In this document: positions 3,530 to 22,545 of the stretch, piece by piece
Layout of the letters: every line of letters begins with the position of its first letter
Numbering within the stretch: the first letter of the stretch is position 1
NCBI GenBank assembly: GCA_027044945.1
Contig: JALUBK010000048.1
Location: 1-62,333 of the forward strand
DNA from: Campylobacterales bacterium
GTDB lineage: Bacteria > Campylobacterota > Campylobacteria > Campylobacterales > JALSKU01
DNA: 62,333 nucleotides
Direction: 5' to 3'
Position numbers and translations under genes: made by a program
Notes under the pieces: model-generated
What the model was told of the DNA's origin: nothing
The model's database searches: none
Seen by the model: the letters and a program-made list of their open reading frames with translations, nothing else

Positions 3530-5284
3530 TTGAGAACACATTATAATACTGAAGTTAGTGAAAATGATATAGGTAAAGAGGTTCGACTTTGCGGATGGGT
3601 AAATAGCAGAAGAGATCATGGAGGGGTAATTTTTATAGATTTACGAGACAAAACAGGACTTGTTCAATTAGTTTGTGATCCAAAAGATAATGAAGAAGCT
3701 TGGAAGATTGCTGATAGCATTAGAGATGAATTTGTTTTAATTGCAAGTGGAAAAGTTAGATACAGAGGCGAAGGACTTGAAAACCCAAACCTAAAAACAG
3801 GAAAAATAGAAATAATTGTTCAAAATTTAACAATAGAAAATAAATCTCTTCCTATGCCATTTGATTTGGGAGATGAGAAAGTAAATGAAGAAATAAGATT
3901 AAAATACAGATATTTGGAACTTAGAACTAAAAAAAGTTTAGATATTTTTAAATTAAGAAGCAAAGCTTCAATAGCTGCAAGAAATGCTTTAGACAAACTT
4001 GGTTTTTTAGAAGTTGAAACCCCTATTTTAACAAAATCAACTCCCGAAGGAGCTAGAGATTATTTAGTGCCAAGTCGTGTTCATAATGGTGAATTTTATG
4101 CACTTCCTCAATCTCCACAACTTTTTAAACAACTTTTGATGGTAGGGGGATTTGATAAATATTTTCAAATTGCAAAATGTTTTAGAGATGAAGATTTAAG
4201 AGCAGACAGACAACCAGAATTTACACAAATAGATGTTGAAATGAGCTTTTGTGACCAAGAAGATATCATGAAGGTGGCAGAAAATTTACTTTTTAATATT
4301 TTTAAAGCTTGTCAAAAAGAGATACCAACAAGTTTTGACAGAATAACTTATAACGAAGCTATGGAAAAATATGGTAGCGATAAACCAGATTTAAGATATG
4401 ATTTATCGATGGTTGATGTTATTGATATTTTTGAAAAAAGCTCAAATGAAATTTTTACTTCAATCGCAAAAGATAAAAGAAGAAATAGAATAAAAGCTTT
4501 AAAAGTTCCAAATGGAGATAATATTTTTTCAAAAAGACAAATGAAAGGTTTTGAAGAATATGTTAGAAAATTTGGAGCAAAAGGACTTGGTTATTTTCAA
4601 ATGAAAGAAGATGGATTAAAAGGACCATTAACCAAATTTTTTACTCAAGAGGATTTGACTGAACTTATTAATATTTGTGATTTAAAAGTAGGCGATGTTG
4701 TATTTTTTGGTGCAGGAGATAAAAAAATAGTTTTGGATTATATGGGAAGATTTAGAATTTATTTAGCAGAAATGATGAATATAATTCCTCAAGATGTTTT
4801 TAAATTTATATGGGTAGTTGATTTTCCAATGTTTGAAGTAGAAGAAGGAAAAGTTAAAGCACTTCATCACCCTTTTACAATGCCAAAAGACTTCAATCAA
4901 GACATAGAAGATATTAGCTCTATTGCTTATGATATAGTTTTAAATGGAGTTGAATTGGGAGGCGGAAGCATAAGAATTCATAAAGAAGAAATTCAAAATA
5001 AAATTTTTAAATTACTTGGTATTTCAGACGAAGAAGCAAATCAAAAATTTGGATTTTTGCTTGAAGCTTTAAAATTTGGAGCACCTCCTCATGGCGGATT
5101 TGCTATTGGATTTGACAGACTAATTATGTTATTGAGTAAAAGCGAGAGTATAAGAGATGTTATCGCTTTTCCAAAAACACAAAAAGCACAATGTTTGCTC
5201 ACAAATGCACCTAGTGAAGTTGATAATGAACAATTAAAAGAGTTGGGACTTAGAGTAAGAAAAATTACAACTACAGAACAATAA
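3530..5284 (+). CDS. aspS: Aspartyl-tRNA synthetase, bacterial type
   Basis: This enzyme charges tRNA with aspartate; many relatives in this phylum also charge tRNA-Asn and rely on GatCAB. The 584 residues have the OB anticodon-binding domain first ([19 protein letters not shown]), then class II catalytic motifs. Motif 2 is visible as [20 protein letters not shown] and motif 3 as [13 protein letters not shown], with the bacterial GAD insertion between them (about residues 280-400). The start is TTG at 3530 after AAGGAA; no better ATG exists nearby. It is followed after 12 bp by adk. Discriminating versus non-discriminating specificity cannot be read confidently here. Confidence 0.95.
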
Positions 5285-5296
5285 AAGGATAAAAAA

Positions 5297-5875
5297 ATGA
5301 AAAAGTTATTTTTAATTATTGGAGCACCAGGAAGCGGTAAAACAACAGATGCACAAATTATAGCAGAACACAATAGTGAAACTATTGCTCATTATTCAAC
5401 CGGAGATTTACTAAGAGCAGAAATTGCAAGCAAAAGCGAACTTGGAAAAACAATAGAAGGATATACTTCAAAAGGTAATCTTGTTCCTTTAAACATAGTT
5501 ATAAATACTATTGTCAATGCTATAAAAAATTCAAATAAAAATATAATTTTGATCGATGGATTCCCAAGAAGTGTAGAACAAATGAGAGAACTTGATAAAA
5601 TTTTACAACAAGAAAACAATATAAAACTTACTTCGGTCATAGAAGTTGAAGTTAGTGAAAAAGTTGCAAGAGATAGAGTTTTGGGGCGAGGTAGAGGAGA
5701 TGATGATAATGAAGAAGTATTTAATAATAGAATAAAAGTTTTTACTGATCCTCTAAAAGAGATACAAGATTTTTATAATAAAAAAAATCTTCTCAAAAAA
5801 ATTAATGGCGAGAGAACAATAGAAGAAATTGTTAGTGAAATGGAAAAATATATAAAAGGATTGGCAGGTTTATAA
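5297..5875 (+). CDS. adk: Adenylate kinase, short form
   Basis: Adenylate kinase interconverts ATP + AMP with 2 ADP. The 192-residue product carries the P-loop GAPGSGKT at residues 9-16, the AMP-binding region [12 protein letters not shown], the motif LIDGFPRS and the LID-proximal arginines [19 protein letters not shown]. The LID is short and has no Cys4 zinc site. An AAGGA site precedes the ATG. The stop overlaps the start of the next gene by one base (TAATG), indicating translational coupling. Confidence 0.95.
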
Positions 5876-6621
5876 TGATAAAAAATCCTGTTTTTTATAG
5901 TGTTATTATTGGCACTGAAATACTCAATGGAAGAAGAGAAGATAAACATTTTGAATTTATAAAAAATGAATTAATAAAAAGAGGTTGGGAACAAAAAGCA
6001 TGTTTTACCATCAAAGATGATCCTCTTTTTATGGAAAATGTTTTCAACCTTGTAAAAAATGATCCGAATTCAGTTATGTTTAGTTTTGGAGGGATTGGTG
6101 GCACTCCTGATGATTATACAAGACAAACTGCAGCAAAAGTTTTTAGAAACAATAAGATAGAACAAAATCAAGAAGCTTTGAAACTTATCATTAATCAATT
6201 TGGCCAATCTGCTTATCCCCACAGAGTTAATATGGCAAATCTTCCAAAAAATGCTTTACTTTTAGAAAATATTGTAAATAAAGTTCCGGGTTTTGGGATA
6301 GATGAAAGATTTTTCTTTGTTCCTGGTTTTCCGGAAATGGCTCATCACATGGTGATTGAAGCATTAGATAAATTTTATCCTAAAAATTACAAAAAATATT
6401 TTTGTAATTTTGTTGTATTTGCAGGTGAGAATGAGCTTATAGACACTATGAAAGAACTTCCTTTAGATTTAGAATTTTCTTCATTGCCAAAATTTGTTGG
6501 CGATAAAAGAAAAGTAGAAATTTATATAGCTGACAAAGATAAAAAAAGAGTAGATACTTGGTGTAATTTTTTTAAAGATGAAATTACGAAAAAAAATATT
6601 AAATTTAAAGTGCTTTGTTAG
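5875..6621 (+). CDS. CinA N-terminal-like molybdopterin-binding-domain protein
   Basis: The 248-residue product resembles the N-terminal MoCF-biosynthesis domain of CinA: IGTEILNGRREDKHFEF at the start and FSFGGIGGTPDDYTRQ around residue 70, matching the GG-GPT-DD motif of the family. The C-terminal nicotinamide-nucleotide amidase domain of full CinA is absent. Single-domain forms are common in this phylum; their reaction is not established, with a nucleotide pyrophosphatase role as one possibility. It overlaps the adk stop by one base and ends in a terminator shared with metE. Confidence 0.8.
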   Translation: MIKNPVFYSVIIGTEILNGRREDKHFEFIKNELIKRGWEQKACFTIKDDPLFMENVFNLVKNDPNSVMFSFGGIGGTPDDYTRQTAAKVFRNNKIEQNQEALKLIINQFGQSAYPHRVNMANLPKNALLLENIVNKVPGFGIDERFFFVPGFPEMAHHMVIEALDKFYPKNYKKYFCNFVVFAGENELIDTMKELPLDLEFSSLPKFVGDKRKVEIYIADKDKKRVDTWCNFFKDEITKKNIKFKVLC

Positions 6622-11229: not shown

Positions 11230-11266
11230 GTAACATTTTAATTTTATTTAGTTTTTAAAATGTTAC
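11230..11266. promoter_or_regulatory. Inverted repeat in thiL-sdhA divergent region, candidate operator
   Basis: A perfect 12-bp inverted repeat (GTAACATTTTAA and TTAAAATGTTAC) separated by 13 bases. It ends 28 bp upstream of the sdhA -10 element, so it covers the -35 zone and above. It resembles a terminator (TTTTT follows) but no transcript should end here, because the genes diverge. A regulator-binding site is the more likely reading. Confidence 0.5.
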
Positions 11267-11294
11267 TTTTTGTCTATTTTAAACTTTATATTTG

Positions 11295-11300
11295 TATAAT
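11295..11300 (+). promoter_or_regulatory. Predicted -10 element of sdhABE promoter
   Basis: TATAAT 32 bp before the ATG of sdhA, preceded by a T-rich stretch typical of Campylobacterota sigma70 promoters. Confidence 0.5.
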
Positions 11301-11331
11301 ATCTTTAAATTTTAAAACAAGGGATCGCTAT

Positions 11332-13053
11332 ATGAGCATACCAATATATCACTATGATGCTATCATAGTAGGAGCTGGACTTGCTGGGCTTGCTGCAGCA
11401 AGAGAGATTGAAAGCCATGGGAAGCATGTTGCAGTTATAAGCAAACTTCATCCACTAAGAAGCCATTCTGGGGCTGCTCAAGGTGGTATAAATGCTGCAT
11501 TAAAAGAAAAAGATAGTATAAAATCTCATATGTTTGATACTATTAAAGGAAGTGATTATTTAGCTGATCAAGATGCAGTTAAACTTATGTGTGAAGGAGC
11601 TCCAAAAACTGTTAGATGGGCAGAAAGTATGGGAGCTGTTTTTAGTAGAGAAGATGACGGAACTATTGCTCAAAGACCTTTTGGAGGACAATCTTTTCCA
11701 AGAGCTTGTTATGCAAGAGATAGGACAGGATTGACACTGCTTCAAACAATGTTTGAACAAGCAGACAGAGACGGTGTTGAATATTGGGATGAATGGTATG
11801 TAGCAGATATAATACAAGAAAACAAAAATGTATATGGAGTTGTTGCTTATAATATCAGAACACTTGAACCTGCAATTTTTAATGCCAGAGCTGTAATGTT
11901 AGCAACTGGAGGATATGCAAGAGCTTATAAAATAAATTCAAATGCACATGCTAATACTGGTGATGGTTTATCAATATATGCAAGACATGGATTGCCCTTA
12001 AAAGATATGGAATTTGTTCAATTTCATCCAACAGGATTGGCTGGAACTGGTATCCTTATCAGCGAAGCTGCAAGAGGTGAAGGCGGAAAACTATTCAATA
12101 GTGAGGGTGAAAGATTTATGGAAAAATATGCTCCTGAAAAATTGGAGTTGGCACCTAGAGATTTAGTTAGTCGTTCAATAACAAAAGAGATACTTGAAGG
12201 CAGAGGTGTAGGACCAAATAAAGATGCTGTTTATCTTGATCTTACTCATCTTGGAAAAGAAAAAATATTAGCAAGATTGCCTGAACTTAGAGATTTAGCT
12301 ATTACATTTTTAGGACTTGACATGATCAAAGAACCTATTATGGTAGCCGCTACTGCTCATTATTCTATGGGTGGAATTCCAGTAGATAACGACGGAAGAG
12401 TGAAGTTGAATCAAGAAGATAGAATTAAAGGATTGTATGCAGCAGGTGAATGTGCTTGTGTTAGTGTTCATGGAGCAAACAGACTTGGAGCAAATTCATT
12501 ACTTGAAGCTATGTTTTTTGGAAGGCATACAGGAAAAGCTATAGTTTCAGATCTTAGAAAAAAAGATTTTCTTGTTCATAAAGAATCTGACGAAAAAGAT
12601 GCAGATAGAATGTTGAATGAAATAAATACCATTATGACTTCAAATGGAAACGAAAAAGTGTCTGCTTTAAGAGTTGAACTTCAAGAAAGTATGACACAAA
12701 ATGCAGGAGTTTTTAGAACAGAAGAATCTCTTTTAAAACAAAGAAAAATATTAAAAAATCTTAGAGATAGGTTTAAGCATATAAGAATAGACGATAAATC
12801 AAAAATTTACAATACTGATTTACAAGAAGCCATAGAGTTAGGTCATATGCTTGATTATTCTGTATTTATAATCGAAGGTGCAATAAATAGGCAAGAAAGT
12901 CGAGGTTCTCATTTTAGAGATGACTATCCAAAAAGAGATGATGAAAAATTTTTGAAACATACTTATGCAACAATGGATGAAAACGGTGAAATACATATAG
13001 ATTATAAAGATGTAAATCTTGGAATTTTTGAGCCACAAGAGCGAACATATTAA
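11332..13053 (+). CDS. sdhA: Succinate dehydrogenase/fumarate reductase flavoprotein subunit (SdhE-type enzyme)
   Basis: This flavoprotein interconverts succinate and fumarate. The 573 residues start with the FAD-binding [19 protein letters not shown], then HSGAAQGG around the covalent-FAD histidine region, and catalytic residues in QFHPTG and the late [14 protein letters not shown]. An in-frame ATG 24 codons upstream exists, but GGGA before the ATG at 11332 and the conserved N-terminus favour the shorter form. There is no twin-arginine signal, so it is cytoplasmic, unlike the periplasmic MfrA of Campylobacter and Wolinella. It forms an operon with sdhB and sdhE. Confidence 0.92.
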
Positions 13054-13068
13054 AAGGGGCTACGAAAG

Positions 13069-14046
13069 ATGACTAATTATGCAAAAAGAAAAATAAAATT
13101 TAATGTTTTTAGATTTAATAGTGAAACTGATCATTTACCATATTATAAAGAATATGAAATGGAAGTATCTCAAGATGAAGTAGTTCTTGATATATTAAAC
13201 AGAATCAAATGGGAATTTGATGGAAGTTTTAGCTATAGAAGAAGTTGCAGACACGGAATCTGCGGAAGTTGTGCTATAAAAGTAAATGGAAAACCAGTTC
13301 TTTCTTGTAAAGAAAATGTTTTTCATTTAGTAGAAATGTTTGGAGAAGAACTTACTCTTGATCCCCAAGATGAAAAAAGAGCTATAAAAGATATGGTAAT
13401 AGACAAAAAAAATTTTTGGAATAAATACGAAAGTGTAAAACCTTATCTTGTAGCTGAAGTTCAAGAACATCCCAATCATGAAAATATAGTTTCCCAAAAA
13501 GAATCTAATAAAATTGATGATGCGGATTATTGTATAGAATGCGGAAACTGTTTTTATGCTTGTCCTGCTGTCAAAGCAAATGATGATTATATTGGTCCTG
13601 CTGCACTTTTAAAAGCTTTTAGATTTAATGCTGATGTTCGAGATAATGCAAAAAAAGAAAGATTAGAAATTGTCAATGAACCAGGTTTTGGTGTTTGGGA
13701 TTGTGTAAAATGTTATGAATGTGCTGAAGCTTGTCCGAAAGATTTATCTCCTATCAATAAAATAACAAAATTACATAATCAAATTTTTGAAAATAAACAA
13801 GCTATCAATAATGTTGCTACAAGACATGCTGTTGGCTTTAAATCTTCAATTAAAAAACACGGTATTTTAGATGAAGGAGAGCTTGTCCGATACAGCGAAG
13901 GAAATATTGGAGTTTTAAAACATATACCAGAAGCTGTTTCAATGTGGAAAAAAGGTAAATTAATAATGCCTTGGAAAATGCCAAGTTCTAAGAACATGGA
14001 CGAAATTAAAAAACTTGTTGATATAGCTTCAACAGTTGATTTTTAA
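13069..14046 (+). CDS. sdhB: Succinate dehydrogenase/fumarate reductase iron-sulfur subunit
   Basis: This subunit wires electrons between the flavin and SdhE. The 325 residues hold a plant-type [2Fe-2S] site (SCRHGICGSCAIKVNGKPVLSC, Cys spaced 5-2-n) near residue 60. Two C-terminal Cys clusters follow, CIECGNCFYACP and CVKCYECAEACPK. The third Cys cluster is of the CxxCxxxCP type, consistent with SdhE-linked enzymes. It starts 15 bp after sdhA. The C-terminal tail after the last cluster (about 100 residues) is longer than in mitochondrial-type SdhB, as usual for the SdhE-containing class. Confidence 0.92.
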   Translation: MTNYAKRKIKFNVFRFNSETDHLPYYKEYEMEVSQDEVVLDILNRIKWEFDGSFSYRRSCRHGICGSCAIKVNGKPVLSCKENVFHLVEMFGEELTLDPQDEKRAIKDMVIDKKNFWNKYESVKPYLVAEVQEHPNHENIVSQKESNKIDDADYCIECGNCFYACPAVKANDDYIGPAALLKAFRFNADVRDNAKKERLEIVNEPGFGVWDCVKCYECAEACPKDLSPINKITKLHNQIFENKQAINNVATRHAVGFKSSIKKHGILDEGELVRYSEGNIGVLKHIPEAVSMWKKGKLIMPWKMPSSKNMDEIKKLVDIASTVDF

Positions 14047-14056
14047 GGAGAATTCA

Positions 14057-14935
14057 ATGAATAAATTAAAATATGCACTATATACTGGATGCACCGCCAA
14101 AGAAAGCACTCCTGAATTATTAAAATCAACTTTAGCTGTTGCCAAAGCTTTAGATATTGAATTGATTATTTTAGAAGAAGCTAGTTGTTGTGGAGCAAGT
14201 CACTTACAAGATTTTGATGATTTTTTATCTTTAACATTAAATGCTAGAAATATATGTTATGCCGAAAAACTTGGTTTTACAATGATAACAATTTGCAATA
14301 CTTGCCAATTAAACCTTTCTATGACCAAAAAAAAACTTGACAAAAATAAGGAATTAAAAGCTAAAGTCAATCAAAAATTAAATGAAGTTGGTTTGGAATA
14401 TAAAGGAAATGTTGATATAAAACATTTTTTATACGCACTTATAGATGATATTGGAGTAGAAGAAATCAGAAAAAGAGTAAAAAAACCTTTAGCAAATATT
14501 AATATTGCACCTTTTTATGGATGCCACAATATAAGACCTAGTTCTTTGCAAAGCAAAAACAATGGCAATGAAAATCCTTATGTTCCAGATTCTATTGAAA
14601 GATTGATAGATGCTCTTGGCGGAAATTCAATAGATTATGCACATAAAAATAAATGTTGTGGTTTTCATGTAGAATTACAAGCTCCAAAAACAGCAAATAT
14701 CCTCTCTGGCAATGCAATGACTGATGCTATGGATAATAATGCTGATGCAGTAGTAACACCTTGCCCTCTTTGTCATTTAAGACTTGATGTGCAACAACAT
14801 AACATATCAAAAGAGATCGGTAGAGATGTTAAGATGCCTATACTTCATCTTCCTCAAATGATAGGATTAGCCCTTGGATTGGCTCCTGAAGATTTAGGCT
14901 TGAATCACAATATAAGTGAAATAACTTTCTTATAA
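14057..14935 (+). CDS. sdhE: SdhE/HdrB-like CCG-domain subunit of succinate dehydrogenase/fumarate reductase
   Basis: This 292-residue subunit resembles heterodisulfide reductase HdrB and is thought to link the SdhAB pair to the quinone pool without a cytochrome b subunit. Two Cys-rich CCG domains are visible: CTAKES...EEASCCGASH...CNTCQLNL in the first half and FYGCHNIRPSS...HKNKCCGFHV...CPLCHLRLD in the second. The ATG at 14057 has AAGGAG eight bases upstream; an earlier in-frame start would overlap sdhB. A 16-bp-stem hairpin follows the gene. Confidence 0.9.
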   Translation: MNKLKYALYTGCTAKESTPELLKSTLAVAKALDIELIILEEASCCGASHLQDFDDFLSLTLNARNICYAEKLGFTMITICNTCQLNLSMTKKKLDKNKELKAKVNQKLNEVGLEYKGNVDIKHFLYALIDDIGVEEIRKRVKKPLANINIAPFYGCHNIRPSSLQSKNNGNENPYVPDSIERLIDALGGNSIDYAHKNKCCGFHVELQAPKTANILSGNAMTDAMDNNADAVVTPCPLCHLRLDVQQHNISKEIGRDVKMPILHLPQMIGLALGLAPEDLGLNHNISEITFL

Positions 14936-15052: not shown

Positions 15053-15442
15053 ATGCCAAAAATAAACAAATATGTAGATATAGACTCAGTCGAGAGAGAA
15101 GCAAAAAAGGATTATATAGACAGACATTCTCCTTTTATTTATTGTGCTGATAGTGCAAAATCTGATGAAATTTTTGAAGTAACTGTAAAAGTAGGAAAAG
15201 AATATACTCATCCAGATGATTTTGATCATTATATTGCGAGTATTTCATTATATAATGGTGAAACACTTTTAGCTAAAGCAGATTTTATGGCAGGAACTCT
15301 TGGTGGTCAAGGTGCAAAAGGTCAAACAGAAATAACATTTAGAGTTAAGCCAAAAGGTAAAAAAATGAAATTTGTAGCTCAAAGCTACTGCACTAAACAC
15401 GGTATTTGGGAAAGTGATCCAAAAATTGTTGAAGTCATTTAA
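15053..15442 (+). CDS. Superoxide reductase (neelaredoxin-type, single iron centre)
   Basis: Superoxide reductase turns superoxide into hydrogen peroxide without making oxygen, a defence of anaerobes and microaerophiles. The 129-residue protein has all five ligands of the Fe(His)4Cys centre with family spacing: His25 (DRHSP), His53 and His59 (HPDDFDHY), Cys113 and His116 (CTKHG). There is no desulforedoxin domain at the N-terminus, so it is the 1Fe type. The usual Glu-Lys pair just before the first His ligand is Asp23-Arg24 here. It stands alone between two hairpins under its own palindromic promoter region. A SoxZ reading was considered and dropped. Confidence 0.9.
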   Translation: MPKINKYVDIDSVEREAKKDYIDRHSPFIYCADSAKSDEIFEVTVKVGKEYTHPDDFDHYIASISLYNGETLLAKADFMAGTLGGQGAKGQTEITFRVKPKGKKMKFVAQSYCTKHGIWESDPKIVEVI

Positions 15443-17414: not shown

Positions 17415-17438
17415 AGTTTTTATTATTGTAAAAAATGA

Positions 17439-17454
17439 ATGAATATTAATTCAT
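17439..17454. promoter_or_regulatory. Inverted repeat upstream of hydrogenase operon, candidate operator
   Basis: ATGAAT-ATTA-ATTCAT, a 6-4-6 inverted repeat ending 16 bp upstream of the TATAAT at 17471. It overlaps the -35 zone, a position suited to a repressor or activator such as a nickel- or oxygen-responsive regulator. Confidence 0.35.
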
Positions 17455-17470
17455 ATTTGTATTACTTTAA

Positions 17471-17476
17471 TATAAT
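17471..17476 (+). promoter_or_regulatory. Predicted -10 element of hydrogenase operon
   Basis: TATAAT 39 bp before the GTG start at 17516. Confidence 0.45.
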
Positions 17477-17515
17477 TATTGCTAAAATAAGAAAAATGTA
17501 AAAAAGGAGAGATTT

Positions 17516-17797
17516 GTGAATGAAACATGTATACGGATGTATTGTGAATCTGAAGGAAGATGCCATGGAATTGTTTTAATTTTTTTCAAAGAAGAACAAA
17601 AAAATAGAATATTGGCAAAAACTGATGAATTAGCTTTAAGACATAGGGTTACACCAGATGTTTCTATTCGTAATCTAGAAAAATATGGAGAAATATTTAT
17701 AGAGTTTTATGATGAATATAGTCATGAAGGTGCATATTTTTTTGAAGATTTAATAGAAACATTAGGTGCTAAATTATGTAATTGTGAGGACTTATAA
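17516..17797 (+). CDS. Small acidic protein heading the hydrogenase operon, function unknown
   Basis: A 93-residue protein begins with GTG after AAGGAGAG. It has Cys residues near both ends (ETCIRMYCESEGRCHG and KLCNCEDL) and an acidic aromatic stretch (EIFIEFYDEYSHEGAYFFEDL). The Cys pattern could hold a metal or cluster but matches no family I know. It directly precedes and overlaps the hydrogenase small-subunit gene by one base, so a role as an accessory, maturation or regulatory subunit of that complex is likely by context only. Confidence 0.65.
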   Translation: MNETCIRMYCESEGRCHGIVLIFFKEEQKNRILAKTDELALRHRVTPDVSIRNLEKYGEIFIEFYDEYSHEGAYFFEDLIETLGAKLCNCEDL

Positions 17798-18675
17798 TGA
17801 AAAAAATCATTCCTAAATTATTTAGAATAAACACAGGAAGCTGTAATGGTTGTGATGTTGAATTTGTAGCTACTGCTTTAGTCGAAAAATTTCATATCGA
17901 AACATTAGACATAGAAATGGTAGAAGAAATTAAAGATGCTAATTTATTAGTGATAACCGGACCTTTAACAGCAAGAAGTGAATCTTTTTTTAAAGATGCT
18001 CTAAGACAGGTAAAAAAACCTTTTGCTGTAGTTGGAATAGGAACTTGTGCAATTAGTTGTGGAATTTTTAGAGATTCTTATGCCATAAACGGACCTATTG
18101 ATAAATTTGTAGAAGTTGATGTTAATGTTGCAGGTTGTCCTCCAAGACCTCAATCTATCGCAGAAGGTATTGCAAAAGGCATTAAAATATTAGAACAAAA
18201 AATGAACGGAGAAGCAACTCCTAAAAAAATTGATTCTAATTTTAAAGATTTTTCAGCTCCAGAAACTTTTAGAGGAAGACTTTCTTTAAATGAAGAAAAT
18301 TGTGTAGCTTGTAGAACTTGTGAAACTGTTTGTCCATCAAATGCTATTGAAATTTCTAAAACTAAAGATGGCTTTATTCATAAAATTTGGCATAATTCTT
18401 GTTGTTATTGTGGAAATTGTGCCTATTTTTGTCCAACTGGTGCAATTTTTACAACAAATAACTTTGATACAGCAAAACTTCAAAATGAAAAATTCAGCGA
18501 TGTAAATATAGGATATATACATTATAGCACATGTTCTAATTGCCAAGAAAAATATATGGCTCCCACAAAAGGACTTTTAAATAAGGCATATAATGAAAAT
18601 AATATAAAAAAACTAAATGAAAAAATTTGTCCTAAATGTAGGAAAGAAGCAAATTTTAAAAGGATATATTCATGA
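17797..18675 (+). CDS. Group 4 [NiFe] hydrogenase small subunit fused to a HycF/NuoI-like ferredoxin
   Basis: The 292-residue product joins two parts. Residues 1-135 are a NuoB/HycG/EchC-like small subunit with the proximal-cluster cysteines Cys16 and Cys19 (SCNGCD), a GTCAISCG site and Cys114 (AGCPPRP). Residues 165-215 hold two [4Fe-4S] motifs (CVACRTCETVCP and CCYCGNCAYFCP). The tail carries four more Cys (TCSNCQ and CPKC), as in HycF. In E. coli formate hydrogenlyase these are separate proteins HycG and HycF. Electrons would pass between the NiFe site and a soluble partner. Confidence 0.88.
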   Translation: MKKIIPKLFRINTGSCNGCDVEFVATALVEKFHIETLDIEMVEEIKDANLLVITGPLTARSESFFKDALRQVKKPFAVVGIGTCAISCGIFRDSYAINGPIDKFVEVDVNVAGCPPRPQSIAEGIAKGIKILEQKMNGEATPKKIDSNFKDFSAPETFRGRLSLNEENCVACRTCETVCPSNAIEISKTKDGFIHKIWHNSCCYCGNCAYFCPTGAIFTTNNFDTAKLQNEKFSDVNIGYIHYSTCSNCQEKYMAPTKGLLNKAYNENNIKKLNEKICPKCRKEANFKRIYS

Positions 18676-19175
18676 ATATAGAAGAATTTAATAATGCAGT
18701 AAAAAGAAAAATATCCCATAGCTATGAAATAAAAGAGGATAAAGATAATTATGACAATACTATAGCTTGGGTAATTTTAAGTAACAAAAAAGATATAGAA
18801 CCTGTAGCAAAAGCTATTCAAGCCTATAAAGGAAGATGTATTGTTGTTACTGCATATAAAAATAAAGATGATTCCCATACTGTTGTATATCATTTTGACA
18901 TAGAAGGATTACTTATCAATGTAAAACTTGTAACAGACGATGAAAGTATTTTTTCTATTGCTGATATAATTCCTAGTGCGAACTGGGCAGAAAGAGAATT
19001 AAGAGAAATGTATGATATTGAACCACTTGGACATCCAAATAAAGATAGATTATTTTTAGATTATAGCATAGCTAAAGGTGTTCTAAATGAATATATACCT
19101 TTTTCTAAAATGCAATTAGGCATAAGTGAAAATGACATACTTTGGAAAAATGTAAATAAGGAAATAGAAGAATGA
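18672..19175 (+). CDS. Hydrogenase subunit, NuoC/EchD-like (30 kDa complex I homologue)
   Basis: The 167-residue protein has the complex I 30-kDa signature near its C-terminus: ANWAERELREMYDIEPLGHP followed by RLFLDY. In Ech and Coo hydrogenases this is a separate small subunit; in E. coli HycE it is fused to the large subunit. It overlaps the small-subunit gene by 4 bp (ATGA) and the next gene by 4 bp, so the three are translationally coupled. It carries no metal site and acts as a scaffold for the large subunit. Confidence 0.88.
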   Translation: MNIEEFNNAVKRKISHSYEIKEDKDNYDNTIAWVILSNKKDIEPVAKAIQAYKGRCIVVTAYKNKDDSHTVVYHFDIEGLLINVKLVTDDESIFSIADIIPSANWAERELREMYDIEPLGHPNKDRLFLDYSIAKGVLNEYIPFSKMQLGISENDILWKNVNKEIEE

Positions 19176-20254
19176 AAGAAAAAATTACTATAGGACCTTT
19201 TCATCCAGAATTAGAAGAATCTGTTTATTTTAAATTGACTGCCGATGAAAATAGAATAATAACAAATGTGGAAATTATTAATGGTTTTATTCATAGAGGA
19301 ATGGAATCACTTATTACAGAAAAAAATTTTATGCAAAATCTTATTTTAACTGAAAGAGTTTGTTCGCTATGTTCAAACAATCATACTTTTGCCTATGCTT
19401 TAGCTGTAGAAAAAATTTCAGGAGTCAAAGTTCCACCTCGCGCAGAAGCATTAAGAGTTATTGCTGATGAAATAAAAAGAGTAGCTTCTGACTTATTTAA
19501 TCTTGCTATGTTATCACATTTGCTTCATCATCATGAGCTCATGAAAGAAACAATGAATACAAGAGAACATATGCAAGACCTCAAAGAAATAATTTGGGGA
19601 AATAGAATGGATATGAGTGCCAATCAACTTACAGGAACAAAATATGATTTAAATGATAAAAAAATAAAACTTATTTTAGAAACATTATCACTTGTTGAAC
19701 CTAAAGTTAAATCTCTTCAAGAAAAATATGAAAATGATCCGATTGTAAGAGAAAATACAATAAATGTAGGTGTATTGCCTTATGAAGATGCATTAAGACT
19801 AGGAGTTACTGGACCTGTTGCAAGAGGAAGCGGCATTAACAATGATGTAAGATCTATAGCTCCATATTCTATGTATAAAGAATTAAAACCAAAAGTAACA
19901 TTAAGAGAAGGTGGTGATATTCATTCTAGAGCCATGGCTAGATTTGGAGATATCACAGATGCTATAAGAATGATAAAAGAAGTTGTTCACAATCTTCCTA
20001 GTGGAGATACTTATGTAGAAAAAAGACCACATATTCCAGCAGGAGAAACTGTTGTAAGAGTAGAAGCACCAAGAGGAGAACTTTTTTATTATTTAAAAAC
20101 AGACGGAAGTCAAAAACCAGTAAGAATGAAATGGAAAGTTCCTACCTTTACAAATTGGGAAGCTTTAAGGATAATGCTTTTAGGAGATAAGGTAGATAAT
20201 GTAACTTTAATTCTAAACAGTATTGATCCATGTATATCTTGCACAGAAAGATAG
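19172..20254 (+). CDS. Group 4 [NiFe] hydrogenase large (catalytic) subunit, no C-terminal extension
   Basis: The 360 residues are homologous to NuoD/EchE/CooH. Both nickel-binding CxxC pairs are present: Cys64/Cys67 in ERVCSLCSNNH and Cys354/Cys357 in DPCISCTER, so this is a hydrogenase rather than a complex I subunit. The protein stops exactly after the Arg of CTER, where many hydrogenases keep a peptide that is cut off by a maturation protease. It would therefore need no endopeptidase. It overlaps the NuoC-like gene and is followed by a ferredoxin gene after 11 bp. Confidence 0.92.
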   Translation: MKEKITIGPFHPELEESVYFKLTADENRIITNVEIINGFIHRGMESLITEKNFMQNLILTERVCSLCSNNHTFAYALAVEKISGVKVPPRAEALRVIADEIKRVASDLFNLAMLSHLLHHHELMKETMNTREHMQDLKEIIWGNRMDMSANQLTGTKYDLNDKKIKLILETLSLVEPKVKSLQEKYENDPIVRENTINVGVLPYEDALRLGVTGPVARGSGINNDVRSIAPYSMYKELKPKVTLREGGDIHSRAMARFGDITDAIRMIKEVVHNLPSGDTYVEKRPHIPAGETVVRVEAPRGELFYYLKTDGSQKPVRMKWKVPTFTNWEALRIMLLGDKVDNVTLILNSIDPCISCTER

Positions 20255-20265
20255 GAGAAAAATAG

Positions 20266-20772
20266 ATGAGAAATAATAGATTTATATATGCAGATCCGAA
20301 TAAATGTATCGGATGTATCAATTGTGAATTAGCTTGTTCTGCCAGTCATATGGGAGTTGATATTGATGTTGTTTATGATATGTTGCTAAAAAAAGAAGAG
20401 ATAATACCTTCAAGAAATAAAGTTGTTAAAATAGAGGGTAAAACAACCCCTATGCAATGTATGCAATGCAATGATGCTCCTTGTCTTAATGTTTGTCCTA
20501 TTGATATTATAAAATTTGAAGATGGTTTTGTTAAATTTTATGAAGATGATTGCATAGGCTGTCATAGTTGCGAAATAGTTTGCCCTTATGGTGCAATAAC
20601 AATGGGGATCAATACAAAACCAGATGCTCCAGTAAGCAAAATGGTAGCACTTAGTTGCGATTTATGTGGAGGAGAAAATGGAAAACAGGCTTGTATAAAT
20701 ATATGCCCTACTGATGCAATAAGTTTAATTGATCATAAATATTTTAAACAAATGCAAGAAACAAAAAGTTAA
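20266..20772 (+). CDS. Four-cluster ferredoxin, HydN/HycB-like
   Basis: The 168-residue protein has four Cys motifs of the [4Fe-4S] type: CIGCINCELACSAS at the start, CMQCNDAPCLNVCP in the middle, CIGCHSCEIVCP, and CDLCGGENGKQACINICP. This is the HycB/HydN/CooF pattern of electron carriers that link formate dehydrogenase or CO dehydrogenase to group 4 hydrogenases. No fdhF or cooS is next to it. It sits between the catalytic subunit and hypA and probably shuttles electrons between the hydrogenase and the GltD-like flavoprotein or an outside enzyme. Confidence 0.88.
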   Translation: MRNNRFIYADPNKCIGCINCELACSASHMGVDIDVVYDMLLKKEEIIPSRNKVVKIEGKTTPMQCMQCNDAPCLNVCPIDIIKFEDGFVKFYEDDCIGCHSCEIVCPYGAITMGINTKPDAPVSKMVALSCDLCGGENGKQACINICPTDAISLIDHKYFKQMQETKS

Positions 20773-20776
20773 AAAT

Positions 20777-21118
20777 ATGCATGAATACAGCATCGTCCAA
20801 TCAATGCTTAGCTTGTGCGAAAAATATTCAAAAGGCAAAGAGGTTGATAAAATAGTGGTTAAAATTGGTAAAATGAGTGGCATTGAACCACATTTTTTAA
20901 AAGAAAGCTTTAATTTTTTCAAAGAAAATACTATTTGCAAAGATGCAACAATGCAAATGGAATTAATCGACATCACAATAATTTGTGAAAATTGTGGCAA
21001 AAAATCAAAAGTTGATAGTTATAACTTTTTTTGTCCTTATTGTAAAAGTGGAAATACAAAAGTTTTAACAGGGCAAGAAATGCTCATAGATTATATAGAA
21101 CTGAAGGAAGAAAAATGA
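20777..21118 (+). CDS. hypA: Hydrogenase nickel-insertion protein HypA
   Basis: HypA delivers nickel to the hydrogenase large subunit. The 113-residue protein starts MHEYSIVQSML, with the nickel-binding His2 and Glu3, and has the zinc motif CENCGKK...CPYC in the C-terminal half. The ATG at 20777 gives this canonical N-terminus; longer in-frame starts run into the ferredoxin gene. The ribosome-binding site is weak, which fits coupling to the ferredoxin gene that ends 4 bp upstream. Other hyp genes are not in the window. Confidence 0.95.
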   Translation: MHEYSIVQSMLSLCEKYSKGKEVDKIVVKIGKMSGIEPHFLKESFNFFKENTICKDATMQMELIDITIICENCGKKSKVDSYNFFCPYCKSGNTKVLTGQEMLIDYIELKEEK

Positions 21119-22545
21119 ACAGAAAAAAGCAGTATCTAAAAATAAAAAAAGAGACTCCAAAAAAAAGAGAAGCAAGAAAAAGAGTAAGTGATTTTTATCC
21201 TACATATTATATTTTTACAACAGAGGAAGCTTGTACGCAATCATTAAGATGTATCAAATGTCCTGTTGATTTATTAAAAGGTATAAAGAGTGAATTTAAT
21301 TTCTGCAGAACTGGCTGTCCTTTAAATAATAAAATTCCAATTTGGATAGAAAAAGTAAAAAACAAAGATATAAAAGGAGCTTTTGAAATTAGCAATGAAA
21401 CTTCACCATTTCCTGAAATTTTAGGTATGGTCTGCCCTCAAGATGTTCTTTGTCAAGGAGGATGCACTTTATCAAAAACCATTAGTGGAAGTGTAGCTAT
21501 TGGTGCAATTGAAGTTTATTTAAATGAACAAGCTTTTAAAATGGGACTTAAACCTGATTATGGAGAAAATATTAAAAAAATTGGAAAAAGAGTTGCTATT
21601 ATAGGGAGTGGGCCTTCTAGTATGAGTTGTGCTACTTTTTTGCTTAGAGGCGGAGTTGAAGTAGATATGTTTGAAAAATCAGACAGACCCGGAGGACTCC
21701 TTACTTATGGTATTCCTAATTTTAAAATAAAAAAAGATGTAATTCTAAGAAGATTCAGATGGATGCAAGAAGCTGGAATGAATTTGCATTTAAACAGCAA
21801 TATAGAAACTCCAGAACAAATAAAAAGAATGATGGATGATTATGATGCTATCTTTGTAGGTGCAGGAGCTCCTAGAGGCAGAGGTGCAAGAATGAAAAAT
21901 GAAGATGCACATGGTGTATATAATGTTATGGATATTTTAAAACATGCACAAAAAAGAGTTTTTGAAGACTTTTATGAAAGCATATTGGAAGGCAAAAATG
22001 TCATAGTTATAGGAGGCGGAGATTCTGCTATGGATGCTGTTAGAACTTCAGTCAGAATGAAAGCAAAATCAGTTAGATGTGCATACAGAAGAGATGAAAC
22101 AAATATGCCTGGTTCTCACAAAGAAGTGGTAAATGCAAGAGAAGAAGGTGTTATTTTTGAATTCTATACCGCTCCTAAAGAAGTTATAATAGACAAAGAC
22201 AGATATGTGCGAGGATTAATATGTCAAAAAACAAAATTGGGTAGTTCCGATCACACAGGAAGACGAAAGATAGAGATTATAGAAAATAGTGATTTTACAT
22301 TGGATTGCGATGTAATTATATTGGCATTAGGTTTTGATAACATTGTATTTCCTTGGTATGATGATGCACAAATAAATACAGGAAAATGGGGAAATATTAT
22401 CGTAGATGAAAATAAAAGAACTTCAAATGCAAAAATTTATGCAGGAGGAGATGTTGTCCGAGGTGCAGATCTGGCTGTTACTGCTGCTGCTGACGGAAAA
22501 AAAGCAGCTTTTTCGATACTTGAAGATTTTAATAAAAATAAATAA
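21115..22545 (+). CDS. GltD-like NAD(P)-linked FAD/iron-sulfur oxidoreductase
   Basis: The 476 residues match the glutamate synthase small-subunit family. An N-terminal Cys-rich domain (CIKCPVD, FCRTGCPLNN, CPQDVLCQGGC) binds Fe-S clusters. An FAD site follows (VAIIGSGPSSMSCATFLL) and then an NAD(P)H site (NVIVIGGGDSAMDAVRTSV). No gltB is nearby, and the ATG overlaps the hypA stop by 4 bp, so it belongs to the hydrogenase operon. It likely exchanges electrons between NAD(P)H and the ferredoxin or hydrogenase; this is inference from context. Confidence 0.85.
   Translation: MNRKKQYLKIKKETPKKREARKRVSDFYPTYYIFTTEEACTQSLRCIKCPVDLLKGIKSEFNFCRTGCPLNNKIPIWIEKVKNKDIKGAFEISNETSPFPEILGMVCPQDVLCQGGCTLSKTISGSVAIGAIEVYLNEQAFKMGLKPDYGENIKKIGKRVAIIGSGPSSMSCATFLLRGGVEVDMFEKSDRPGGLLTYGIPNFKIKKDVILRRFRWMQEAGMNLHLNSNIETPEQIKRMMDDYDAIFVGAGAPRGRGARMKNEDAHGVYNVMDILKHAQKRVFEDFYESILEGKNVIVIGGGDSAMDAVRTSVRMKAKSVRCAYRRDETNMPGSHKEVVNAREEGVIFEFYTAPKEVIIDKDRYVRGLICQKTKLGSSDHTGRRKIEIIENSDFTLDCDVIILALGFDNIVFPWYDDAQINTGKWGNIIVDENKRTSNAKIYAGGDVVRGADLAVTAAADGKKAAFSILEDFNKNK

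Follow-up and report, generated by a model that had tools for sequence, protein, structure and literature searches.

We analyzed a contig of 62,333 nucleotides (JALUBK010000048.1, hereafter the window; contig C48 of genome G000 in our set) from a Campylobacterales bacterium (GCA_027044945.1) whose 1.42-Mb genome has an estimated completeness of 100%. Positions 17516-22545 of the window carry an operon of seven co-directional genes, overlapping or at most 11 bases apart, which encodes a group 4 [NiFe] hydrogenase without the membrane subunits of an ion pump. It is likely, judging from the sequence, that the product is a soluble H2:NADP(H) oxidoreductase of the cytoplasm, able to run in both directions, that descends from an energy-converting group 4 hydrogenase of the Coo type. 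An earlier note on this DNA had proposed a soluble enzyme coupling hydrogen with NAD(P)H, which is also the reading that our results support best; the genome encodes no CooM or CooK. Through such an enzyme, vent bacteria probably draw the reductant for CO2 fixation straight from hydrogen. Group 4 hydrogenases, near kin of complex I, are seen as ion pumps. A lineage in which the pump was shed, apparently in one event, and the hydrogenase kept together with an NADP(H) module amounts to a dissection of these machines by nature, and its pump-less members can be set directly against their membrane-bound sisters. The cassette also offers an answer to the question of where hydrogen-oxidising Campylobacterota obtain NADPH, for which the genome paper of Nautilia profundicola invoked reverse electron transport by an incomplete complex I (PMC2628731), and it is small enough to be studied in cultivable strains.

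Conservation of the hydrogenase subunits

Conservation was assessed across 30 operons, i.e., that of the window and 29 further loci (L009 and L085 lie on the same contig and were counted once). All 30 encode the small subunit, NuoC, NuoD, HycB, HypA, and GltD. Throughout this set, the large subunit keeps its four cysteine ligands of the NiFe site (C64, C67, C354, and C357), and the 16 cysteines of the HycB-like ferredoxin, those of the CooX-type clusters, and the seven Fe-S cysteines of the GltD-like protein are likewise invariant. In the window, the NuoD/CooH-like large subunit has both [NiFe] CxxC pairs and ends in DPCISCTER, without a C-terminal extension. Its closest solved relative is the membrane-bound hydrogenase of Pyrococcus furiosus (6cfw_L, E 2e-61), the alignment reaching the last residue of the protein, DPCxxC motif included; NuoD and HycE come next. 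Together with a match to PF00346 (E 1e-54), this places the protein in the NuoD-related group 4, and models of group 3 large subunits (frhA, ShyA, HydA) score far below the NuoD/FpoD models. The closest named relatives of the hydrogenase all come from Campylobacterota. The divergences of NuoD and GltD are correlated (r 0.95), a value that shared history alone raises.

Search for membrane subunits

The gene content and coordinates given for the operon in the earlier note agree with the open reading frame (ORF), Pfam, and NCBIfam evidence (Table 1), and domain searches and hydropathy both bear out its statement that membrane subunits are missing. Hydropathy revealed no clear transmembrane stretch in any protein of the operon, GltD-like module included, whereas CooM and CooK relatives have many. 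The note had also named matching membrane subunits elsewhere in the genome as the finding that would speak against a pump-less enzyme. Searches with PF00361 and PF00146 retrieved nothing from the genome beyond NuoL/M/N, NuoH, and the HyfB, HyfF, and HyfC proteins of another complex. The CooM and CooK of the group 4c set CooMKLXUH are absent from both operon and genome. The Hyf membrane genes lie on contig C12, in an operon of their own that also encodes a large and a small subunit. This HyfBCEFG-I complex (L006, 237-6962) is probably not a hydrogenase, because neither [NiFe] CxxC motif is present in its NuoCD-like large subunit (5076-6440); proteins similar to this subunit are found in many Campylobacterota. 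For CooS, the CO dehydrogenase associated with group 4c, the genome has no match over the TIGR01702 cut-off, only one weak fragment of 27.5 bits, and coupling of the hydrogenase to CO was rejected for lack of this gene. Formate dehydrogenase and the HycC/HycD of group 4a formate hydrogenlyase are absent from the operon.

Most of the related loci are alike in this respect: 24 of the 30 have no CooM or CooK in the operon. The other six carry CooM- and CooK-like subunits directly upstream (L019, from Nautiliaceae, and L052, L053, L086, L087, and L088, from group f15, which we infer to be Nautiliaceae). The CooM-like proteins have 1158-1170 amino acids and the CooK-like ones 319-320; in L053, the pair was typed as Proton_antipo_M and NADHdh, respectively. 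When 23 genomes were searched, the only ones with CooM (E 0) and CooK (E 1e-139 or better) were the five from f15 that have operons of the membrane type. The remaining 18, including that of the window, have distant Nuo/Hyf/Ech-type homologues and no free CooM or CooK.

The GltD-like flavoprotein and the proposed reaction

The GltD-like protein has Fer4_20 and Pyr_redox_2 domains, with the motifs for two [4Fe-4S] clusters, FAD, and an NADP(H)-binding Rossmann fold expected of this family. Its closest relatives are GltD and AegA, and among solved structures GltD (6s6s) scores 324 bits vs 255-259 bits for NfnB. The stretch YRRD..NMPGS aligns with NADPH-dependent GltD, both of its arginines being invariant in the 30 operons. 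GltD-like modules pass electrons from NAD(P)H to partners via low-potential [4Fe-4S] clusters (PMC8097209). We ruled out that the protein is a stray subunit of glutamate synthase, because canonical gltBD is present separately in the genome (contig C40).

From this set of cofactor sites we propose a linear chain. H2 would be split at the NiFe site, and electrons would travel singly from the CooL cluster through the CooX-like domain and HycB to the [4Fe-4S] pair and the FAD of GltD, which they would leave as hydride to NADP+. At the high H2 of vents, the enzyme would make NADPH for the reductive tricarboxylic acid (TCA) cycle; at low H2 or with excess NADPH, it could reverse and release H2. The standard potentials are -414 mV for H2 and -320 mV for NADP(H). 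Calculated from these, the transfer from H2 to NADP+ releases about 18 kJ/mol at 1 bar H2, and it comes close to equilibrium when H2 is low. Hence, the reaction needs no pump.

The nuo operon of the same genome (contig C21) encodes, at the position of NuoF, a protein of 689 amino acids (L007, 1515-3587, minus strand) composed of a NuoF-type Fe-S domain and a GltD-like NAD(P)/FAD module, next to a PF16514 NuoE-like protein. NADPH made by the operon could enter the respiratory chain via a complex I with this GltD-like fusion.

Several points weigh against the proposed H2:NADP(H) oxidoreductase. We found no biochemical evidence in the literature for any member of the family, nor expression or biochemical data for the enzyme of the window, and the Ech-like subunits of Sulfurospirillum are of low abundance in reported proteomes (PMC6242987). 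That the enzyme prefers NADP to NAD and that HycB docks directly onto GltD are predictions from motifs and gene order. Electrons may also exit to free ferredoxin at HycB, and the enzyme could still be loosely attached to a membrane complex encoded at another locus.

Alternative explanations

Free ferredoxin might be the main partner of a soluble hydrogenase at the HycB-/CooX-like clusters, with GltD as a side branch equilibrating NADPH and ferredoxin. HycB-like proteins indeed serve as subunits that transfer electrons in hydrogen-dependent CO2 reductase and formate hydrogenlyase, and autotrophs using the reductive TCA cycle need reduced ferredoxin (PMC2628731). We nevertheless regard this as unlikely, given that GltD is present and cofactor-complete in all 30 operons and that, if neither a pump nor bifurcation assists, the transfer from H2 to ferredoxin runs uphill (PMC2628731). 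The electron splitting raised in the earlier note, i.e., an electron-bifurcating or -confurcating enzyme coupling H2, NADP(H), and ferredoxin, is not supported by a comparison of residues. In its favour, the fold of the GltD-like protein is common to bifurcating NfnB, the Fe-S clusters are many, and the host demands reduced ferredoxin. However, Arg201 of NfnB, which lies near the N5 of FAD and is held crucial for bifurcation (PMC10482914), has a lysine in its place (Lys204) in all 30 operons and in the GltD of Azospirillum. Moreover, the protein is nearer to GltD than to NfnB, and the operon has no second flavin module and none of the second bifurcating modules sought (NfnA, HydB/C, or Etf-like; the search for NfnA covered the operon). 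The lysine and the missing module favour a linear H2:NADP(H) chain; electron bifurcation is disfavoured, and we consider it very unlikely. We also consider it very unlikely that the HycB-like protein and the FAD of the GltD-like protein form an undescribed split-electron system, in which a pump-less enzyme would use H2 to reduce both NADP+ and ferredoxin at a site without the arginine of NfnB.

We find it highly improbable that the hydrogenase is membrane-bound and pumps ions with subunits borrowed from another locus, e.g., the HyfBCEF of contig C12 or complex I. HyfB/C/E/F and NuoH/L/M/N do exist in the genome, but the membrane genes of C12 share an operon with their own large and small subunits, and similar large subunits occur in genomes without the hydrogenase of the window. 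In the 23 genomes searched, true CooM and CooK are confined to the five of the membrane type, and the operon was gained or lost without any membrane gene (see the comparison with G004 and G006 below). What we think least probable of all is a role in H2-dependent fumarate reduction, with the hydrogenase-GltD unit feeding a neighbouring MfrABE-type fumarate reductase directly. The genes are close: mfrABE lies upstream of the operon in the window (11260-14935) and directly 3' of gltD in seven f15/Nautiliaceae loci (L019, L052, L053, L054, L086, L087, and L088), and in Nautilia and Caminibacter the coo and fdr operons have been depicted as a single neighbourhood (PMC2628731). Yet, genomes of the same genus keep mfrABE at the same place without the operon, with 88-91% identity within the genus, and the other pump-less operons have no adjacent mfr in the stretches read. 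As mfrABE is a conserved block of the genus, we rejected the idea that it was transferred along with the operon of the window. In the seven f15/Nautiliaceae loci, mfrABE starts 1-2 bases after gltD, an arrangement that suggests their co-expression. In the window and in these loci, the reductase includes an HdrB-like CCG subunit.

Distribution and evolutionary history

NuoD-like subunits (E below 1e-75) were found in 23 of 397 genomes of the phylum. Members of this clade are at least 53% identical and the next relatives at most 37%, with nothing between in the genomes searched. We rooted a NuoD tree with group 4 outgroups (Ech, Azospirillum, and Butyrivibrio), leaving out L091, a pump-less row with a long branch; the pump-less members fall on one side of a branch supported at 97/93. 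With Ech as the only outgroup and all rows included, the same branch has 96/76, and an unrooted tree of five proteins splits pump-less from membrane-type members at 87/98. The outgroups of the NuoD trees are distant and long-branched: a closer CooH outgroup was sought among plasmids, but the best group 4 relatives were ~35% identical, and the distant ones were used. CooM and CooK were most likely lost once, a history that fits these trees. The GltD-like subunit would already have been part of the membrane-bound form, CooM and CooK would then have been lost, most simply in one event, and the pump-less cassette would subsequently have spread among Campylobacterota.

One pump-less locus of f15 (L054, genome G022) shows an in-place deletion of CooM and CooK. 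On the proS side, its flank is 83-86% identical to those of membrane-type loci, and both this flank and the one on the mfrABE side correspond to those of L053. The gltD gene is followed by mfrABE, as it is in membrane-type loci, but CooM, CooK, and a small neighbouring gene are gone. The end branch of its NuoD is long (0.44).

The site of the operon can be compared with that of two genomes of the same genus, G004 and G006, which keep the series mfrABE - desulfoferrodoxin - uracil-DNA glycosylase - orf402 - (ybgC) - ribAB - yebC and have no operon. In G004, 76 bp separate orf402 from ybgC. Hence, all seven genes were gained or lost together between the conserved orf402 and ybgC/ribAB. The hydrogenase was found in none of the eight same-genus genomes searched, and the NuoD of the window is 84-87% identical to relatives in other families. 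Because of the empty sites and this identity across families, we think that the lineage of the window probably acquired the cassette whole; loss in its same-genus relatives is the alternative. The G+C content of the operon (30.4%) is inside the range of the window, and composition thus gives no sign of foreign origin. The desulfoferrodoxin-type gene of the window (15053-15442), between mfrABE and the operon, belongs to the conserved block of the genus.

Operon layout

The genes of the operon are spaced, in order, by -1, -4, -4, 11, about 4, and -4 bases (Table 1). Of the separate promoter region that the earlier note had assigned to them, the 101-bp upstream gap and a good Shine-Dalgarno sequence are there, but a promoter scan gave promoter-like matches at or below chance, and the assignment is tentative. 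An inverted repeat 3' of the gltD-like gene is probably a terminator serving both this gene and the convergent ybgC; a scan for consensus terminators did not pick it up.

The ORF of 93 amino acids heads the operon, where CooM and CooK sit in membrane-bound relatives. It has 18 invariant residues in 10 operons and a predicted beta-beta-alpha-beta-beta-alpha fold (AlphaFold predicted local distance difference test, pLDDT, 83), with no significant match among PDB folds and no Pfam or NCBIfam family.

Table 1. Features of the hydrogenase operon and its borders in the window
Feature	Position	Strand	Evidence
Upstream gap with Shine-Dalgarno AAAAAAGGAGAGATTTGTG; putative promoter region	17415..17515	+	Sequence read
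Conserved 93-aa ORF, no family assigned	17516..17797	+	No Pfam or NCBIfam match
Hydrogenase small subunit (NuoB/CooL-like) with fused two-[4Fe-4S] CooX/HycF-like domain, C-terminal CxxC...CxxC	17797..18675	+	PF01058 E 1e-22, Fer4 domains
NuoC/CooU-like subunit	18672..19175	+	PF00329 E 4e-19
[NiFe] hydrogenase large subunit, NuoD/CooH-like	19172..20254	+	PF00346, PF00374
HycB/HydN/CooF-like ferredoxin, four [4Fe-4S] motifs	20266..20772	+	Best NCBIfam matches AegA N-terminus, HydN
HypA nickel metallochaperone	20777..21118	+	PF01155 E 2e-29
GltD-like flavoprotein: two [4Fe-4S], FAD, NADP(H) site	21115..22545	+	TIGR01318 466 bits, AegA C-terminus 460 bits
Probable terminator: 13-bp perfect inverted repeat, 9-nt loop	22554..22588	.	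Sequence read

Comparison with known systems

The prior literature is substantial, and both pump-less relatives and a proposal of NADPH production have been published. The earlier note was right that group 4 enzymes normally have membrane subunits, with an exception already known from Sulfurospirillum multivorans: the accessible text of the 2017 account calls the missing membrane subunit genes of a CooH-like group 4 cluster remarkable (PMC5357620). This cluster, EchEDFC (SMUL_1307-1310), resembles that of the window in being CooH-like and without membrane subunits, and its gene order matches the loci L055 and L092 of group f20, which presumably come from Sulfurospirillum, judging by gene order and the published gene numbers; the same text covers the four structural genes and, as far as it goes, does not mention a GltD-like partner. 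For the vent isolate Sulfurimonas sp. S2-6 (2021), the accessible text similarly lists a Coo-type cluster, CooLUHF, without cooM/cooK and groups its large subunit with CooH (PMC7952632). Its authors suggested H2 production from CO and, in that text, discuss neither the absence of a pump nor a GltD partner. In 2009, the coo operon of Nautilia was described beside fdr, with an enigmatic role, and Caminibacter mediatlanticus was described with CooLH and without the full operon (PMC2628731); this species may be the source of G022, the genome with the in-place deletion. In 2022, Hyd-3 of Nautilia PV-1 was proposed to produce NADPH on account of an apparently co-expressed NADPH-binding subunit (PMC10092268). 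The CooMKLXUHF3 of Nautilia profundicola and the Hyd-3 of PV-1 share core genes and the mfr/fdr neighbourhood with L019, L052, and L053 (PMC2628731, PMC10092268). Unlike the window, these Nautilia enzymes keep CooM and CooK, and in the three membrane-type loci the small subunit and the ferredoxin, fused in the window, are separate genes. What we add is that the Sulfurospirillum, Sulfurimonas, and Nautilia cases appear to belong to a single family in which the GltD partner is universal, together with the likely single loss of the pump, the in-place deletion, the empty-site comparison, and the residue-level argument against bifurcation of the Nfn type.

More distant systems share parts of this design. 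The CO-induced [NiFe] group 4c hydrogenases of Rhodospirillum rubrum and Carboxydothermus have the same CooL/X/U/H-type module, with the CooM, CooK, and CO dehydrogenase (CooS) that the window lacks. The AegA and YgfT of Escherichia coli, which rank with the best NCBIfam relatives of the two corresponding genes of the window, combine a HycB-like ferredoxin with a GltD-like flavoprotein, but as a single fused protein and without a hydrogenase. In [FeFe] hydrogenases of group A2 (HydDB, PMC5037454), the catalytic subunit is followed by a GltD-like protein, as in the window, although that subunit is unrelated to the [NiFe] one. Finally, the soluble, NADP-coupled [NiFe] hydrogenases of group 3b catalyze the reaction predicted here, H2 + NADP+, whereas the large subunit of the window belongs to the NuoD/group 4 lineage and its NADP module is GltD-like.

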